The translations under genes and the position numbers were made by a program. Under the pieces are notes generated by a model, which saw only the letters and a list, made by a program, of their open reading frames with translations, did not search any database and was not told the origin of the DNA. Below, piece after piece: positions 2,639 to 11,457 of a DNA stretch of 56,717 nt. How positions within the stretch are numbered: the stretch's first letter is position 1; the number at the start of each line of letters is the position of its first letter. Location of the stretch: assembly GCA_014654415.1 (NCBI GenBank), contig JACWDC010000009.1, forward strand, positions 1 through 56,717. Direction: 5' to 3'. This stretch comes from Pelagibacterales bacterium SAG-MED05 (lineage in GTDB: Bacteria > Pseudomonadota > Alphaproteobacteria > Pelagibacterales > Pelagibacteraceae).

Positions 2639-3969
2639 TAGCAGAATTCATAAATCCAGCTACACTAGGTTTTGTTTTAATTGCAGTAATGTTATTTGCA
2701 ATTTTTATTGGTTTTCCAATTTCATTTACTTTAATTTTTTTAGGGTTTGTATTTGGTTATTTAGGTTTCGGTAAGCTAGTTTTTTATTTAATGACCTTAC
2801 AGTTTTCTATGGTCATGACCGAACAAGCACTGGCGGCGGTCCCGCTGTTCGTCTTTATGGGTATTATGATGGAAAACGCAGGTTTGATGGAAAGATTATT
2901 CTCATCTGTTCAATTAATGCTATCTAGAGTAAGAGGAGCTTTATTTTATGCAGTACTTTTCGTTTCAGTAATATTTGCGGCTGCAACAGGTATAGTAGGA
3001 GCGTCAGTAACTATTCTTGGAATTATGGCAGCTAAATCAATGAATAAATCTGGATATGACGTAAGATTAGCTGCAGGAACAATTACAGCTGGTGGTACTT
3101 TAGGAATATTAATCCCACCAAGCATCATGTTAGTTGTTATGGGTCCAATAATGGAAATACCTGTAACTGATTTATTTGCTGCTGCAATTATACCAGGAAT
3201 AATGTTGGCACTTTTGTACGCTGCCTACGTAACCATTAGATGTGCTTTAAATCCAAAATTAGGCCCTGTTCTTCCAGTAGAAGATAGAGCAACAAGCATG
3301 CTAGAAGTCTTTAAAGAATTTTTAATAGGTCTATTACCACCAGCACTTTTAGTTTTTGCAGCACTTGGAAGTATTTTATTTGGATATGCAACACCCACAG
3401 AAGCTGCAGGATGTGGTGCAGTCGGCTCTCTACTTTTAGCATTAGCTTATAGGAAATTAACACTACCAAAATTACAGGAAGCATTAGTAAAAACTTTAGA
3501 GATTTCAGCTTTAATTATGGTGCTTGTAGCAGCTTCAAATTTCTTTGGATCGGTATTTTCTAGACTGGGAACTCCAATGGTTTTAACTGAATTTTTATTA
3601 CAATTAGAAATGAATAGGTATATTATTTTGGGAATTGTTCTTGCTATGATATTTCTTTTAGGGTGGCCTTTAGAATGGGTTCCAATAGTACTAATCATAA
3701 TTCCAATTATTTTGCCTTTAATAGAAGAATTAGGTTTTAATTTAACTTGGTTTGCTATTTTAGTCGCAGTAAATCTTCAAACCGCCTGGCTGTCTCCTCC
3801 AGTAGCACTTTCAGCTTATTTTTTAAAAGGAGTAGTTCCTGAATGGGATTTAAAAGATATTTATATTGGAATGATGCAATTTATGGTATTACAAGTTATA
3901 GGATTAATATTAATAGTAATCTTTCCACAAATAGCATTGTGGTTACCAACGGTACTTTATGGCAATTAA
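2635..3969 (+). CDS. dctM: TRAP transporter large permease (DctM family)
   Basis: 444 residues, strongly hydrophobic throughout with around twelve membrane segments, the usual size for DctM. Family motifs are visible: AAVPLFVFMGIMM near residue 66, GIVGASVTILGIMA near 118, GTLGILIPPSIMLV near 154, YATPTEAAGCGAVG near 251 and LSPPVALSAYFLKG near 385. This is the ion-coupled transport subunit. It overlaps dctQ at the start and the HisD-like gene at the end by 11 bases, so the transporter and dehydrogenase are tightly linked. Confidence 0.94.
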   Translation: MIAEFINPATLGFVLIAVMLFAIFIGFPISFTLIFLGFVFGYLGFGKLVFYLMTLQFSMVMTEQALAAVPLFVFMGIMMENAGLMERLFSSVQLMLSRVRGALFYAVLFVSVIFAAATGIVGASVTILGIMAAKSMNKSGYDVRLAAGTITAGGTLGILIPPSIMLVVMGPIMEIPVTDLFAAAIIPGIMLALLYAAYVTIRCALNPKLGPVLPVEDRATSMLEVFKEFLIGLLPPALLVFAALGSILFGYATPTEAAGCGAVGSLLLALAYRKLTLPKLQEALVKTLEISALIMVLVAASNFFGSVFSRLGTPMVLTEFLLQLEMNRYIILGIVLAMIFLLGWPLEWVPIVLIIIPIILPLIEELGFNLTWFAILVAVNLQTAWLSPPVALSAYFLKGVVPEWDLKDIYIGMMQFMVLQVIGLILIVIFPQIALWLPTVLYGN

Positions 3970-5245
3970 ATATATAAAAAAAGCAGCTAAAACTCCGGAG
4001 ACAGACGATTATAAAACTCAGGCAGCCGTACAAGATATTCTTAATGATATCGCAAAAAGAAAAGAAGAATCCCTAAAAGAACTTAATAAAAAATTTGATA
4101 AGTATGAAGGAGAAGTAATTGTTTCTAAGGAAAAAATCGAGGAAGCAATTAAAAAAGTTGACCAAAAAACTAAAGATGATGTGAAATTTGCTCATGAAAG
4201 AATTAAAAAATTTGCTGAACATCAATTAAAAAGTATGAATAATGGATTTGAAGTTGAATTATCAAAAGGGTTATTTGCCGGACAAAGATTAATCCCAGTG
4301 GATACAGCTGGGTGCTACATTCCTGGGGGGAGATATGCTCATATTTCTTCAGCTGTAATGGCAATAACACCTGCAAAAGTAGCGGGCGTTAAAACTATAA
4401 TTTGTGCCAGCCCTCCTAAAGATAAAGATGGAGCAAATCCTGGAATAATCTTTGCTGCTAATCATTGTGGTGCTGACGTAATAATGAATTTAGGTGGTGT
4501 TGCAGCCATAGGTTCAATGGCACATGGTTGTTTTAATAATCCTCCAGTTGATTTTCTTGTTGGAGCTGGAAACCAATATGTGGCTGAAGCTAAAAGAATT
4601 GTTTATGGAAAAGTTGGAATAGATCAATTTGCAGGACCAACAGAAATTGCAATTATTGCTGACAAATCTGCAGACAAAGAAATTGTTGCAGTAGATTTAG
4701 TAGGTCAGTTAGAACATGGATATAACTCGCCAGGATGGTTATTTACAACAGATAAATCATTGGCAGATTTTACAATGAAAAGAGTTCCAGAATTAATTAA
4801 TGAATTACCTGAATTAGCAAAAGTAAATGCAACTGCAGCTTGGAAAGATTATGGTGAAGTAATATTATGTGATACTAAAGAGGAAATGGCAGAGGTAAGT
4901 GATAAATATGCATCAGAACATTTAGAGGTACAAGCAGAAAATTTAAATTGGTGGTTACAGAGATTAAGAAATTATGGATCATTATTTTTAGGAGAAGAAA
5001 CAACAGTTGCCTATGGTGATAAATGTTCTGGAACAAATCATATTTTACCAACAAAAGGTGGTGGAAGATATACAGGCGGTTTGTTTGTAGGAAAATTTAT
5101 AAAAACTCTTACTTTCCAAAGAATGACGAAAGAAGCTACAGAAGTAGTCGGAGCTACTGCTGCTCGTTTAGGAAGAGCTGAAGGAATGGAAGCTCATGCT
5201 AGGACTGCAGATGTAAGATTAAGAAAATACGGCTTTTCTAATTAA
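3959..5245 (+). CDS. HisD-family dehydrogenase, probable sulfopropanediol 3-dehydrogenase (HpsN-like)
   Basis: 428 residues covering the full histidinol dehydrogenase fold. The zinc and catalytic positions of the family are kept: Gln250 and His253 in GQLEHG, Glu320-His321 in SEHLEV, Asp354 in YGDKCSGTNH, and His413 in MEAHAR. No histidine genes are nearby; the gene overlaps a TRAP transporter gene and is followed by an alcohol dehydrogenase. A TRAP system next to a HisD paralogue is the known arrangement for DHPS (2,3-dihydroxypropane-1-sulfonate) use in marine roseobacters, where HpsN makes sulfolactate with NAD. The enzyme family is certain. DHPS as substrate is inference; other hydroxymethyl compounds are possible. 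Confidence 0.8.
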   Translation: MAIKYIKKAAKTPETDDYKTQAAVQDILNDIAKRKEESLKELNKKFDKYEGEVIVSKEKIEEAIKKVDQKTKDDVKFAHERIKKFAEHQLKSMNNGFEVELSKGLFAGQRLIPVDTAGCYIPGGRYAHISSAVMAITPAKVAGVKTIICASPPKDKDGANPGIIFAANHCGADVIMNLGGVAAIGSMAHGCFNNPPVDFLVGAGNQYVAEAKRIVYGKVGIDQFAGPTEIAIIADKSADKEIVAVDLVGQLEHGYNSPGWLFTTDKSLADFTMKRVPELINELPELAKVNATAAWKDYGEVILCDTKEEMAEVSDKYASEHLEVQAENLNWWLQRLRNYGSLFLGEETTVAYGDKCSGTNHILPTKGGGRYTGGLFVGKFIKTLTFQRMTKEATEVVGATAARLGRAEGMEAHARTADVRLRKYGFSN

Positions 5246-6337: not shown

Positions 6338-6715
6338 ATGAAAAAATTTTTTCCAATAATATTTTTTTTAGTTTTTTCCTCTGTTTATGCTGGAGGTCAC
6401 TTAAGCGCAAAAGATAAAAAAAAAACGCTCGAATGCGCTGGACTTTATTATGCTAATAGCATGATACCTCAAGGAACTTTAGAACTAGATAAAATTGTAC
6501 ATTCAATTGCATCAAAAAAATTCTTAACAACTTTTCTAATCAAAGAGGGTGTTAAAGAAGATGAGGTTAATTCAAAACTCAATAAGTCTGTGGATGAGCT
6601 TTACGGGAAATCTTATGATGAAAAAAAAACAAGCAGTTGTGATAAATTTATTAACAAATTAATACCAGAGTCTAAAAAAGAAATAGAAAAACTTGTTAGA
6701 TCTGGAATTTATTAA
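6338..6715 (+). CDS. Small secreted protein of unknown function
   Basis: 125 residues with a signal peptide (MKKFFPIIFFLVFSSVYA) and a lysine-rich mature part containing two cysteines, at about residues 33 and 100, which could form a disulfide. No family was recognised. Size, signal peptide and two-cysteine layout loosely resemble the secreted protein at 11023-11457 on the other strand, but I cannot claim homology. It starts a tight run of small genes; the next start codon lies one base after its stop. Confidence 0.7.
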   Translation: MKKFFPIIFFLVFSSVYAGGHLSAKDKKKTLECAGLYYANSMIPQGTLELDKIVHSIASKKFLTTFLIKEGVKEDEVNSKLNKSVDELYGKSYDEKKTSSCDKFINKLIPESKKEIEKLVRSGIY

Positions 6716-6716
6716 G

Positions 6717-7004
6717 ATGAGTGGTTTTGTTATAGCTAATCTCAATATAAAAAATCCCGAAGCTTATAAAGAATATGTGGGTAAAGTTGTGGCTACAATA
6801 AAAAAATTTGGAGGCGAATATTTAATTAGAGCAGGAGAGTATAAAGTTATGGAAGGTGAGTGGAAAAATCCTAGAACAGTTGTAATTAAATTTCCAAATT
6901 ACGATAAGGCTTTAGAATGGTATAATTCTGAAGAATATAAACCCGTGAAACCAATTCGTTTAGCAAACTCAGATGGTAACATGATAATAATAAAAGGAGT
7001 TTAA
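6717..7004 (+). CDS. DUF1330 family protein
   Basis: 95 residues from the ATG at 6717. A longer reading from 6693 would overlap the upstream gene and adds residues not seen in the family. The protein fits DUF1330 end to end: FVIANLNIKNPEAYKEYV, then GGEYLIRAG, MEGEW, VVIKFPNYDKALEWYNSEEY and a final RLANS. DUF1330 proteins fold as dimeric alpha+beta barrels of the ABM/EthD kind, and their activity is mostly unknown. It is the first of four such small proteins in this cluster. Confidence 0.85.
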   Translation: MSGFVIANLNIKNPEAYKEYVGKVVATIKKFGGEYLIRAGEYKVMEGEWKNPRTVVIKFPNYDKALEWYNSEEYKPVKPIRLANSDGNMIIIKGV

Positions 7005-7054
7005 TGCCAAAGTTGATTTTAAACATGGAAGTAAAGGAGAAGCATGATAGTTAA
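7004..7054 (+). other. Possible 16-codon leader ORF (MPKLILNMEVKEKHDS)
   Basis: An ATG overlaps the stop of the DUF1330 gene (TAATG) and opens a 16-codon frame that ends inside the next gene in a different frame. It contains the AAGGAG Shine-Dalgarno of that gene, so its translation could couple the two. It could equally be chance. Confidence 0.25.
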
Positions 7055-7334
7055 AATAGAGGGTCCAATTGCAACTTTTGCAAAGTGGAAAGCGATGGTT
7101 CACAGCAATTCAGAAAAGATTAAAAAATACGGTATGACATTTCTTTATGCTGGAACAGAAAAAGATAATGACTCAAAAATCACTACCATTATTAGATTTG
7201 ATACAATGGATGGTCTTAAAGCTTTTAAGGCTGATGAGGAACTTCATAAAGAAAGAGCGGCAGCTGGAGTAGTCTTAGAAAAATCCGTTACAACTCCAAT
7301 GGGTGAAGATTTGTTAGAACAATATAAAGGATAA
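7044..7334 (+). CDS. Small ABM-like (dimeric alpha+beta barrel) protein, function unknown
   Basis: 96 residues. The start is set by AAGGAG seven bases upstream of ATG. The pattern beta (MIVKIEGPI), helix (TFAKWKAMVHSNSEKIKKYG), beta (MTFLYAGTEKD), beta (ITTIIRFD), helix (MDGLKAFKADEEL) and a final strand (VVLEKSVTTP) is that of ferredoxin-like dimeric barrels. No catalytic residues can be assigned. It lies in the small-gene operon, 39 bases after the DUF1330 gene and 14 bases before the membrane protein gene. Confidence 0.75.
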   Translation: MIVKIEGPIATFAKWKAMVHSNSEKIKKYGMTFLYAGTEKDNDSKITTIIRFDTMDGLKAFKADEELHKERAAAGVVLEKSVTTPMGEDLLEQYKG

Positions 7335-7348
7335 CTAAAAGGATAAAT

Positions 7349-7765
7349 ATGATAGATAAATTTGGAAACGCTTTTTATTTAATAATTTACTTAGCTCATT
7401 TTATAATAATTGGTAGCTATGCTTACCAATTAGTTTTTGATACTAAAAAATTTCTAAAAGGTAGAGGAGTAGATAAGACAGCTACTTTAATAACTAGATT
7501 TGCTGGTTCATTCATGGTTTCAATAGTTTTAATGGCCATCTATGTAGCCTTTGTAAGATCAGGTGGATTAGTTGCTACTTGGGCGTTTTTTAACTTAGTT
7601 TTTATAATTAACGTTTCAATATTAGCTGCAAATTTTTATACATTAAAAATTGATAAGACAGGTTTAACTAAAAAAACTAGAAATGATGGAATATATGCTC
7701 CACTTGTTCTAGTAATTATTAGTGCTATTCTCTGTTATGGTTTAGCTGATAAGATTTACGTTTAG
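7349..7765 (+). CDS. Four-helix membrane protein of unknown function
   Basis: 138 residues with four predicted membrane segments, at about 8-29, 49-69, 75-97 and 117-134, and a charged loop KKFLKGRGVDKTATLITRF between the first two. No family was recognised. It is the only integral membrane product of the small-gene cluster, placed between two barrel-fold proteins with gaps of 14 bases on both sides. A membrane partner for the soluble barrels is a reasonable guess, but nothing in the sequence proves it. Confidence 0.72.
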   Translation: MIDKFGNAFYLIIYLAHFIIIGSYAYQLVFDTKKFLKGRGVDKTATLITRFAGSFMVSIVLMAIYVAFVRSGGLVATWAFFNLVFIINVSILAANFYTLKIDKTGLTKKTRNDGIYAPLVLVIISAILCYGLADKIYV

Positions 7766-7779
7766 TAAAAGGAGGAACG

Positions 7780-8073
7780 TTGGCAAAATTTATGAATATA
7801 GTTAGATGTAAAGTAAAATCATCTAGCAGAGACGAGTATTTAAAAATAATTGATGAGATACCAAAGTTTGATGGTCAAATTTCAGCAAAGTATGTTGAAA
7901 CAAAACCAAACGAATTTTTTATGATTGGCGAATGGAATTCTGAAGATGATATAGCTAAAGCAAGACCAAAAATGATAGAATTTTTGGATAAAGCTAGGCA
8001 TACTTTAGAAGAATTGTCTTCAGAGTTAGGAGTTACAGATCCTCACTCTGGAACAGTTATAGTTGAAAAATAA
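7780..8073 (+). CDS. ABM-like small protein, TTG start
   Basis: 97 residues beginning at TTG 7780, just after the near-perfect Shine-Dalgarno AAAGGAGGAACG; no nearer ATG gives the first strand. The sequence (FMNIVRCKVKSSSRDEYL, then FMIGEWNSEDDIAKARPKM and RHTLEELSSELG) looks like an antibiotic biosynthesis monooxygenase-type domain: strand-helix-strand with a central EW and a C-terminal helix. Members include haem-degrading and quinol oxygenases and many of unknown function. No haem-binding histidine can be confidently assigned. Confidence 0.75.
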   Translation: MAKFMNIVRCKVKSSSRDEYLKIIDEIPKFDGQISAKYVETKPNEFFMIGEWNSEDDIAKARPKMIEFLDKARHTLEELSSELGVTDPHSGTVIVEK

Positions 8074-8086
8074 GAAAGGGGGAACA

Positions 8087-8410
8087 ATGGCGAAATTTAT
8101 AACTTTAGGAAAGTATACTGCTAAAGGTCTTGGAGGATTTATTAGCAATCCATCTACAGATAGAAAAGCAGCAACTTCTGCACTAGCTGAATCAGTTGGA
8201 GCTAAGGTAACTAGATACGCTGGTTTAAGAGGCAAGTATGACTTTATGGCTGAGATAGAAGGTACATTTGAACAAGCTGCTGCAGCTTCAATGGTTGCAA
8301 CATCTAGTGGTGCAGTATCTGATTTTACTATTTTAGAAGATGTTGATCTTAACGAAATAGCTAAAACTGCACAAAAAATGGCTAATTCATACAAAGAGCC
8401 AGGAAAATAA
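8087..8410 (+). CDS. GYD domain protein
   Basis: 107 residues from ATG 8087, preceded by GAAAGGGGGAACA, one of the strongest ribosome-binding sites in the window; an extension to TTG 8063 would overlap the previous gene. The pattern FITLGKYTAKGLGGF, then DRKAATSALAESVGAKV, RYAGLRGKYDFMAEIEG, a central helix, and GAVSDFTILEDVD matches the GYD family. These small dimeric-barrel proteins are of unknown function. It closes the small-gene operon and abuts the convergent methyltransferase gene with no space. Confidence 0.82.
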   Translation: MAKFITLGKYTAKGLGGFISNPSTDRKAATSALAESVGAKVTRYAGLRGKYDFMAEIEGTFEQAAAASMVATSSGAVSDFTILEDVDLNEIAKTAQKMANSYKEPGK

Positions 8411-9121
8411 TTATTTTTTGTAGTTGATACAAATTAAGGTGTCGGTGAACTTTATTTGATTTTTAAAGTTAGATTTAAATTCTTCGACACCTTTTTTTAT
8501 TTCTTTTCTAGAAAGATTTAATAAACAAGAAATATATCTATTTTTTATCATTTTTATATATTTTGATTTTGATATAGAAACTTTAAAATCGAAATGACTA
8601 ATTTTGTATTTGTTGAATTTTTTTTTTACTCTTTTTATTAAATTTTCATCTTTTTTTAGACTTAAAATTAATTTAATTTTCATCCTTTTAAAACTTGGTA
8701 TTTGATTATTTTTTGTTTTAAGAGAAAAAATTAGTATATGGCCTTTTTTATTAAGTTTTTTTATAGCAATATCTAATAAAGAGTCCAATTTAGTTTTAGA
8801 AAAAAAATGAATAGTTTGTTTGATTAAAATCAAATCAAATTTTTGGTTTGATTTTTTTAGATATTTTACAGCATCAACTCTTTTAAAAATAATATTATTT
8901 TTTGTATTATCATTTTTTATTACATCTATTCCCACAGGTTTATTTCGAAACTTATATTTTTTTTGAAGGAAGCTAATTATATTTGCTCTTCCACAACCAA
9001 CATCAAGAATTCTAGTTTTTTTATCAATTTTTATTTTTTTTTTTAAAAATTTACAAAAAAATAAAATATATCTATTAGATGATAACCAGGTTTTATTATC
9101 CCAATTCTTTAATTGTTTCAT
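8411..9121 (-). CDS. Class I SAM-dependent methyltransferase
   Basis: 236 residues, very lysine-rich. SAM motif I is clear (RILDVGCGRANIISFL, about residues 38-53), the acidic end of strand 2 is GIDVI, and motif IV is FDLILIKQTIHFF. The substrate is not identifiable. It is the last gene of a five-gene minus-strand unit and overlaps the phosphotransacetylase gene by one base. Base composition is more AT-rich than the metabolic genes beside it. Confidence 0.82.
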   Translation of the reverse strand: MKQLKNWDNKTWLSSNRYILFFCKFLKKKIKIDKKTRILDVGCGRANIISFLQKKYKFRNKPVGIDVIKNDNTKNNIIFKRVDAVKYLKKSNQKFDLILIKQTIHFFSKTKLDSLLDIAIKKLNKKGHILIFSLKTKNNQIPSFKRMKIKLILSLKKDENLIKRVKKKFNKYKISHFDFKVSISKSKYIKMIKNRYISCLLNLSRKEIKKGVEEFKSNFKNQIKFTDTLICINYKK

Positions 9122-10029: not shown

Positions 10030-11026
10030 CTAATTCATCCATTTCTTTTAAAACTTTTGAAGGTATAAATATATTTTTATTTAAATTCTTTTTATATGCT
10101 TTATTTTTTCTTTCTCCAGGGTAAAGAATTGAATCAAAACCTTTAGCTTTTGGAAGTCTTTTAACAAGACTGATGTTTCTTTTTATTTCGTTCATAAAAT
10201 TTTTTCCCACAAAAATCTTAGGATTAATTGTAATAAATAAATGTCCTACATTTTGCGGTCCAGTAAAATCGTCAAAGGGGTCTTTTGTTTTTCCGCCGTG
10301 ACTGCTTCCAGTTAAAACCCCACTCAATATATCTACCATCCAAGCCAAACCAGAACCTTTAAAGCCAGCTATAGGAAGTTGAGTTCCTAATAAAGCTTCT
10401 TTAGCATTAGTTGTAATTTTTCCAGATCTATTTAAGGCAACACCGAATGGAATTTTTTTACCAAATTTATGAGCTTGTCTTATTTTACCTCTATTAATTA
10501 TAGAAGTAGATGAATCTAAAATAAAAGGAACTTTACCGGTTGGAACACCAAAACAAATTGGGTTAGTTCCAAATAGGGATTTTTTCGATCCATATGGAGC
10601 TAAAGCAGGCGGAGCATTTGTGAAACAAAAAACCATCAAGTTTTTTTTTACTGCTTGTTCTGCATAAAAACTAGATAATCCATAATGACCACTTTTTTTC
10701 ACTGCAACTAAACCAATACCAGTTTTTTGTGCATTTTTTATTGCTTGATTAATAGCAATATCCGCTGAGACAAACCCAATACTATTATCTGCATTAATAT
10801 GAGATATGGATGAGCTTATTTTTTTAATTTTTATTTTGGGCCTAGGGTTAATTAATTTTTTTTTGAGTCGATCACAATACATTTTTAATCTTAATATGCC
10901 ATGAGATTTTGCCTCAACAAGCTCAGCCTTAATTAAATAATCAGCACAAACTTCAGCATGTTTTTTAGATAATTTGTGATTATTAAAAATTTTCGTAATT
11001 TTTTTTCTTAATATATCTTTCTTCAC
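10019..11026 (-). CDS. Malate/L-lactate/sulfolactate dehydrogenase family (Ldh2/ComC-like)
   Basis: 335 residues. Family landmarks are the N-terminal helical part ending in HGILRL, the catalytic-site segment KSGHYGLSSFYAEQA, then PYGSKKSLFGTNPICFGVP, FILDSSTS, and KGSGLAWMVDILSGVLTGSSHG. These NAD(P)-dependent 2-hydroxyacid dehydrogenases include malate, ureidoglycolate and (R)-sulfolactate dehydrogenase. Given HpsN-like and taurine genes nearby, oxidation of sulfolactate to sulfopyruvate is attractive but unproven. It overlaps both neighbouring genes (4 and 11 bases). Confidence 0.85.
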   Translation of the reverse strand: MKKDILRKKITKIFNNHKLSKKHAEVCADYLIKAELVEAKSHGILRLKMYCDRLKKKLINPRPKIKIKKISSSISHINADNSIGFVSADIAINQAIKNAQKTGIGLVAVKKSGHYGLSSFYAEQAVKKNLMVFCFTNAPPALAPYGSKKSLFGTNPICFGVPTGKVPFILDSSTSIINRGKIRQAHKFGKKIPFGVALNRSGKITTNAKEALLGTQLPIAGFKGSGLAWMVDILSGVLTGSSHGGKTKDPFDDFTGPQNVGHLFITINPKIFVGKNFMNEIKRNISLVKRLPKAKGFDSILYPGERKNKAYKKNLNKNIFIPSKVLKEMDELDVI

Positions 11027-11457
11027 TTAATTTTTTTGTTTCCTTTTTTTTCCCAATAATTAATTCTTTGTTTTTGATTTTCCACTAAATTCTTACATAA
11101 AAGACCATATTTTTTAGCCAAAGATGAAAAATCTTTTTTTCCAATTTTAGTAAATTTTTTTACTTCCTCTCTAGTAATTCTAGCCATTGTTTCAGGTTTT
11201 AAGCCTAACACTTCACCTAAATCATAATTAAATTTTAGTGTAACGTCGGCACTTTTTTCTAAACCCTCTATGATTTGTCTTTCCATTCCAGCTTCTTTAA
11301 AACTTTCTGCTCCTACTTTATAAAAACTATAGCAAGTGACATAATCTTTTTGAATATTTTCAATGATGTATTTTGCTACTTTCTCCTCTTTAGTTTTTTC
11401 TACCGCCAGTAGATTTAAAGGGAATATTAATAAACTTAATAAAAATAATTTTTTCAT
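11023..11457 (-). CDS. Small secreted protein of unknown function
   Basis: 144 residues with a signal peptide (MKKLFLLSLLIFPLNLLAV) and a mostly helical, charged mature domain carrying two cysteines (VTCYSFYKVG and LLCKNL). No known domain was recognised. It overlaps the racemase and dehydrogenase genes by four bases each, so it is co-translated with metabolic enzymes even though it is exported. A periplasmic role next to the taurine-type transporter is possible but speculative. Confidence 0.7.
   Translation of the reverse strand: MKKLFLLSLLIFPLNLLAVEKTKEEKVAKYIIENIQKDYVTCYSFYKVGAESFKEAGMERQIIEGLEKSADVTLKFNYDLGEVLGLKPETMARITREEVKKFTKIGKKDFSSLAKKYGLLCKNLVENQKQRINYWEKKGNKKIK

Follow-up and report, generated by a model that had tools for sequence, protein, structure and literature searches.

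The DNA considered here is a contig of 56,717 nucleotides (JACWDC010000009.1) from the SAR11 bacterium Pelagibacterales bacterium SAG-MED05, whose assembly comprises 969 kb in 35 contigs; the whole stretch is called the window below. At positions 6338–8410 it carries a row of six close-packed genes, named here in their order sec (a small secreted protein), DUF1330, ABM1, TM (a membrane protein), ABM2, and GYD, of which DUF1330, ABM1, ABM2, and GYD had been described in an initial annotation as small alpha+beta-barrel proteins. The row is best understood as one state of a modular SAR11 array in which single modules are gained, lost, and replaced, a reading favored as a whole at a probability of about 0.7. 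Across the Pelagibacteraceae the array is modular and not a fixed operon, and the window displays one of its states. Its modules belong to a pool partly shared by two chromosomal settings, one beside a methyltransferase-like gene and the other behind cysE-cysK; an in-place remnant of another module is preserved within the row, and ABM1 bears the marks of a recent exchange.

This modularity is apparent from a comparison of 121 loci, comprising the 80 best of at least 570 relatives of TM (all Pelagibacteraceae, presumably ocean single-cell genomes), one locus from genome G323, and 40 chosen from the groups g6, g8, and g9. All but the G323 locus were found via TM, and the counts given here are not population frequencies. 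Two or more barrel genes are present in 98 of these loci, in 50 arrangements when homologous labels are kept separate and duplicate and edge-truncated arrays are included. With one repeated locus removed (L226, which repeats L175; 97 arrays) and six arrays lacking a flank left out, the remaining 91, each with both flanks, contain 35 distinct ordered barrel sets when homologous labels are merged, ranging from ABM2-GYD alone (four arrays) to nine barrel genes. TM is present in all 98 arrays, the search having been made by TM; ABM2 recurs in 67, GYD in 65, and DUF1330 in 63, frequencies above chance that bear out the view of the row as a recurring unit. Conservation of gene order, checked in Pelagibacteraceae relatives, presents a divided picture in that the order is largely kept while the content varies. 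This variation tells against an early suggestion that the row encodes a multi-subunit oxygenase or, more generally, is a fixed operon for a hetero-oligomeric barrel enzyme. The tight packing of the genes, a common TM-ABM2-GYD core in the window's genus, and the dimeric nature of the fold class all speak for such an operon, yet it is quite unlikely given 35 barrel sets in 91 arrays, the absence of both ABM2 and GYD from all 31 arrays at the cysK site, and the presence, in order-mates and G058, of an ABM2 with no other module in its vicinity.

Within the window's genus, the layout opens with a flank and the secreted protein, which DUF1330 often follows; next come a variable slot, TM, ABM2, and GYD (in some arrays with GYDb ahead of it), and a convergent methyltransferase-like gene usually closes the series. 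Some arrays have nothing in the variable slot; in others it is filled by ABM1, DUFb, X95, X96 with X95, ABM1 with X95, or X90-X123-X95. Genomes of another genus, g6 (presumably Pelagibacter), carry many of these modules behind cysE-cysK, where the arrays also include X103, GYDc, two kinds of SnoaL-like gene, and cupin-like (match below cut-off), DsbA-family, Small Multidrug Resistance (SMR), and DUF2798 genes. Modules common to the arrays of the methyltransferase and cysK sites are TM, X95, X96, DUFb, GYDc, ABM1, X90, X123, X103, and DUF1330. Sorted by flank, 40 of the 98 arrays lie beside genes of the dihydroxypropanesulfonate (DHPS) type, 27 beside an enoyl-CoA-hydratase-like (ECH-like) gene, and 31 behind cysE-cysK. 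One place with differing content in relatives, the pattern that characterizes replacement flexible genomic islands, is thus what the array presents. At the cysK site, many arrays are closed by one or two SMR genes together with a DUF2798 membrane protein of 73 residues (L114, L190, L225–L230, L240–L250, and others). Secreted proteins of 157–162 residues, of two kinds (Sec160 and Sec162b), occur as extra modules at L220, L230, L233, L240, L241, L244, L246, L251, and L252; the one Sec160 protein scanned matched no Pfam family above cut-off.

Replacement of a module has left a trace in the window itself. Positions 7004–7043 (+) hold the first 11–12 codons (MPKLILNMEVKE) of what, judged from these codons, is an in-place remnant of another module, X90. 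The stretch had stood out in the list of open reading frames (ORFs) as the apparent beginning of a module since lost. A degenerate pattern made from it is found in two of the 169 genomes of the genus, the window's own and G323, both without mismatch; in G323 it opens an intact ORF of 90 residues (X90) at the same place behind DUF1330, overlapping the DUF1330 stop. The AAAGGAG of the remnant now precedes ABM1, where the ABM1 ribosome site is expected.

ABM1, by the measure of its synonymous differences, is a recently exchanged module. Among 11 holders the median difference is 0.16 (55 pairs), compared with medians of 0.51–0.69 in the same genomes for tctA, hisD, ADH, sec, GYD, MT, PTA, slcC, and racem and 0.38 (three pairs) for secB. 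The ABM1 of the window differs from those of ten other holders by 0.07–0.29 in nine cases and by 0.55 in one (L111); for the flanking genes tctA, hisD, ADH, sec, MT, PTA, and slcC, differences between the window and the ABM1 holders are 0.34–0.70. Because the codon adaptation of ABM1 is low (0.654), codon bias does not explain its low synonymous difference. DUFb exhibits a similar contrast (0.07; 10 pairs) and GYDb a less sharp one (0.20; 120 pairs), and the core modules TM (0.33) and ABM2 (0.46) are intermediate in the ABM1 pairs.

The attC sites of integrons are about 57 nucleotides long or more. All 307 neighboring barrel/barrel or barrel/TM pairs are close, and the 303 same-strand gaps among them have a median of 13 and a maximum of 53 nucleotides, so that there is no room between modules for an integron attC site. 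Likewise, no match to the integron integrase model TIGR02249 exceeds the 265-bit cut-off in the 169 genomes of the window's genus; weak matches, of at most 29.4 bits, occur in 107 of these and in all 14 control genomes. Integron gene-cassette arrays, as characterized in the available text of PMC3548836 and PMC1382264, resemble the SAR11 array in their short one-gene modules, their single direction, and their small alpha+beta proteins without known function, but the SAR11 array differs in having no integrase over cut-off, gaps of 53 nucleotides or less, and an order that is largely kept. An absence of attC sites from SAR11 hypervariable regions was reported by Wilhelm et al. (PMC2217521).

In the favored reading, a chromosomal slot would hold a series of one-gene modules a few bases apart and in one direction, many of them ferredoxin-like proteins of 90–130 residues (ABM, DUF1330, GYD, or DUF3764-like) or SnoaL/NTF2-like proteins. 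Usually, a secreted protein would lead the series and a small membrane protein would lie within it or at its side; lineages would gain, lose, and swap modules singly. The means would probably be homologous recombination via shared neighbor modules and flanks, which is the simplest candidate and agrees with the recombination at flanks proposed for replacement flexible islands in the accessible part of PMC4033161. These islands and the SAR11 hypervariable regions HVR1–4 (PMC2217521) share with the array a fixed place and variable content. They differ, in the portions available, in consisting mostly of surface-polysaccharide, transport/secretion, or unknown clusters, whereas the unit here is a single barrel-family gene of about 100 codons. 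The HVR1–4 gene tables name no array of this sort; seven genes in HVR3 are entered simply as "unknown", next to OsmC-like and betaine-homocysteine methyltransferase genes (PMC2217521), and an Arctic SAR11 island, which includes an SMR gene among its 17 genes, is described in terms that make it a separate one (PMC12421898). As most SAR11 islands are said to hold hypothetical proteins (PMC7318151, in the text available), the array may sit unnamed in published island plots. Flexible SAR11 islands are already known; a small-barrel array was not found described in the open literature on SAR11 islands, barrel families, and cassettes, a survey mainly of titles and abstract openings with supplements and most subscription papers outside it.

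The assignment of the modules to barrel families varies in strength. An ORF re-check confirmed the six genes with their coordinates, lengths, and gaps (1, 39, 14, 14, and 13 nucleotides along the row), all on the + strand. DUF1330 (6717–7004; 95 residues) belongs to PF07045 (E 6e-32, 110.3 bits against a cut-off of 23, residues 2–95) and has solved relatives by sequence search of the PDB (2fiu, E 3.6e-15; 3lo3, E 1.2e-11), a point of likeness to the ABM/dimeric alpha+beta-barrel superfamily. GYD (8087–8410; 107 residues) belongs to PF08734 (E 2e-11, 44 bits against 31.4), with no solved relative by sequence at E≤10. The description of two further modules as ABM-like holds for ABM2 by its predicted fold; by sequence both fall below Pfam cut-offs, and ABM1 (7044–7334; 96 residues) is nearest to DUF3764 (PF12594; E 7e-5, 23.3 bits, under the cut-off of 24). 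ABM2 (7780–8073; 97 residues, with a TTG start where relatives have ATG or GTG at the same position) matches ABM (PF03992) at E 0.0056 and 17.3 bits, under the cut-off of 23.1. Its structure, predicted with fair confidence (mean pLDDT 80.8), is a beta-alpha-beta-beta-alpha-beta ferredoxin-like fold of the ABM type. Comparison of the model with the PDB gives 2pd1 as the best match (Z 11.2, root mean square deviation 2.0, 90 residues), followed by 3e8o (Z 11.0), and includes PA0709 as a structural neighbor; by Foldseek, ABM-type proteins lead, with E from 3.5e-5. ABM2 would thus resemble the solved members of the superfamily (2pd1, 3e8o, IsdG/IsdI, LsrG, SnoaB, and PA0709) in predicted fold and size, whereas identity to the listed solved ABM-type chains is roughly 9–21% and a sequence search for solved relatives returned chance-level matches only.

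For X96, X103, X95, X123, and ABM1, no solved relative was found by sequence at E≤0.1. A profile comparison of 18 module families joined DUF1330 with DUFb and DUFc, GYD with GYDb and GYDc, X96 with X94, X95 with X93, and, at 91.7%, ABM1 with X90. The possibility of one ancestor or fold for all modules was considered and set aside, as the comparison linked near relatives only. The top Pfam match of X90 by E-value is DAHP_synth_1 (0.00029), followed by DUF3764 (0.00062), both below cut-off. X95 resembles SCO4226 weakly by sequence (E 0.0066, below the Pfam cut-off); SCO4226 is described in the available text of PMC4186839 as a nickel-binding ferredoxin-like dimer.

The non-barrel members complete the row. 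The protein encoded by sec (6338–6715; 125 residues) has two Cys and, by eye, a signal-peptide-like N terminus; its usual place is the array front, it matched no Pfam family in a Pfam scan, and secB and secC are its homologous variants (hhalign 99.6–99.95%). Beyond GYD lies the methyltransferase-like gene (8411–9121, − strand), identified by Pfam scan and by the layouts of relatives as the convergent array flank at the window's site. The presence of secreted and membrane-bound products, together with high turnover of content in one slot as in defense islands, might point to a defense or counter-defense locus of small variable genes under phage pressure. That interpretation is very improbable, as the families are metabolic barrel types, none of ten proteins has a PADLOC match at E≤1 that would indicate an anti-phage family, and TM, X95, and DUF1330 had no relatives in a viral collection scanned with narrow peptide patterns.

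TM (7349–7765, +; 138 residues) is a membrane protein with four helices in a poor AlphaFold model (pLDDT 55.1) and only two chance-level matches to solved proteins by sequence. A relative is found in 113 of 143 family genomes (those at least 90% complete, plus the window's own), in single copy except in G147. In a draw of 337 genomes from the class, 12 carry TM, three of these within the family; the nine outside it yield ten matches, beside which no barrel run was seen by eye in stretches of up to 3.4 kb (L208–L217). TM occupies several chromosomal places and, with gene names assigned by eye, is also found alone beside rho/LON or MetF/DmdA-like genes. It is on the opposite strand in ten of the 31 cysK-site arrays. 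An inverted TM between array and cysK, as if flipped singly, is seen at L220, L222, L224, L233, L240, L241, L244, L246, L250, L252, and L257. In the order-mate G026 (L046), a 102-residue ORF of barrel size is convergent with TM.

Ribosome-binding sites provide a further view of the array. Among 44 window genes scored for Shine-Dalgarno strength, ABM2 (AAAGGAGGA; −10.0 kcal/mol) is tied for first, GYD (AAAGGGGGA; −9.1) is tied for third, and ABM1 (−7.1) is sixth; ABM2 and GYD share the top ranks with two periplasmic-binding-protein-like genes and a TRAP solute receptor. The strong sites first attributed to several genes of the row are therefore real for three of the six, those of TM (−3.8), DUF1330 (−3.3), and sec (0) being weak or lacking; 21 of the 44 genes have no match whatever. 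Across all loci, the medians of module families are stronger than those of 12 neighbor families, from which the membrane modules SMR111 and DUF2798 were excluded (p = 0.011 one-sided, 0.023 two-sided). These strong sites suggest that many of the soluble modules are produced abundantly. Promoter matches show no excess (11 versus 12.1 in shuffles), and terminator-like sites number two versus 0.8 in shuffles. The last codons of the window's DUF1330 (AAAGGAGTTTAA) contain a Shine-Dalgarno-like GGAG ahead of the next module. GGAG is found in the 3' end of 42 of 70 DUF1330 genes, where the end is often AAAGGAGTNTAA, and of all eight DUFc genes, and the module after either often begins 0–5 nucleotides past the stop. 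It is a tentative possibility that SAR11 maintains a cassette library without an integron, in which genes from about fifteen barrel families, along with further small genes, form a shared pool and are shuffled singly within populations by homologous recombination, giving each lineage its own combination of proteins for handling small molecules. On that account, the DUF1330 3' end could double as a ribosome site for any module behind it, and the X90 remnant would now stand where its successor ABM1 needs one.

Several observations weigh against the favored reading or parts of it. Arrays without TM are under-counted, because loci were selected by the presence of TM; G158, with sec-ABM2-GYD in one place and TM elsewhere (L096, L189), provides an example. 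Moreover, because it also lies alone in other places, TM may be a mobile gene in its own right and no partner to the barrels. For X95, X96, X103, and X123, the folds are deduced from size and weak or no family matches, and profile comparison joined none of the four to known barrels. The exchange signal of X95 and X96 is weak, as several neighbors show no higher values than they do in many of the pairs. Between methyltransferase-site and cysK-site arrays, median identity is 0.90 for X96, 0.82 for X95, 0.93 for X123 (one pair), up to 0.96 for DUFb, and 0.57 for DUF1330, with synonymous medians of 0.42–0.74; as HpsN-like genes (0.85) and PTA (0.72), which are not modules, are similar to a like degree, such likeness across settings does not by itself show transfer. 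In G010, one of the weak integrase matches, an ORF of 327 residues that resembles phage-type tyrosine integrases (L031, 13696–14679), sits behind a taurine-pyruvate-aminotransferase-like gene, at a distance of about 3 kb from the methyltransferase gene on the side away from the array. Across all loci, ribosome sites are weak in DUF1330, DUFc, TM, X96, and the DsbA-family gene and strong in the neighbors CMD130, VOC136, and tctA. Codon adaptation, for which eight ORFs on one strand of a run of ribosomal-protein genes served as reference, does not separate array genes from others and gives no indication of high expression.

A rival explanation is that of an ordinary flexible island without a common theme, in which unrelated short genes gather where recombination is easy. 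Islands and recombination are known in SAR11 (PMC2217521, PMC4033161), other SAR11 islands are described as full of hypothetical proteins (PMC7318151), and TM and ABM2 are also found alone. A themeless island is nevertheless somewhat unlikely, since a partly shared pool serves two settings and the modules are uniform in size and, by label, in family class (three DUF1330, three GYD, two DUF3764-like, and two SnoaL-like labels, some below cut-off).

A link to the sulfonate genes near the row was another early suggestion, and it fares unevenly. Of the 98 arrays, 40 adjoin tctA-hisD-ADH genes of the DHPS type, 11 of the 31 cysK-site stretches contain an HpsN-like gene, and 25 of the 27 g6 genomes tested have such a gene at most 20 kb from TM, 17 of them at most 8 kb. 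In G010, whose array is without HpsN, the methyltransferase side is followed by a gene that by eye is like the window's taurine-pyruvate aminotransferase, and PA0709, the structural neighbor of ABM2, has PDB entries with a glyoxal modification. That the array is a detoxification or catabolic aid for neighboring DHPS or taurine pathways is still unlikely. The ECH-like gene takes the place of the DHPS-type genes in 27 of the 98 arrays, and all ten ECH-type array genomes tested have no close HpsN (a 33–37% HisD-like match or none; completeness 77–98%). In the two g6 exceptions, HpsN is 317 kb from TM (G043) or missing (G167). Because the ten ECH-type genomes and G167 keep the array without a close HpsN, HpsN is not required by it, and on these gene contents a dependence of the array on HpsN is unlikely. 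The HpsN-like gene of the window (3959–5245, hisD/HpsN-like) is itself a mosaic, its identity to relatives within the genus being about 95% in some cases and about 72% in others, from which it appears that sulfonate genes may also be exchanged. Another small secreted protein that has two Cys is encoded in the sulfonate region of the window (11023–11457, − strand).

A role of the modules in small-molecule handling, though less probable than not, is what their families, the strength of several ribosome sites, and the accompanying efflux, DsbA-family, and SnoaL-like genes together favor. The DsbA-family, SMR, SnoaL-like, and cupin-like genes of the larger arrays hint weakly at detoxification. It is conceivable, if on the doubtful side, that the modules are homodimeric barrels, each binding or transforming a single kind of small, perhaps toxic, metabolite, and that the array is a locally adjustable small-molecule kit. 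SAR11 bacteria have very small genomes for free-living cells and are very abundant in the sea, and the array indicates that they nevertheless give genome space to a changeable set of small barrel proteins, several of which have strong ribosome sites. The array provides a context for domains without known function, such as DUF1330, GYD, and DUF3764, and represents cassette-like turnover at the grain of the single gene without an integron. If its modules are a swappable metabolite-handling set, the array would connect local chemistry with the population structure of SAR11 in a compact way.

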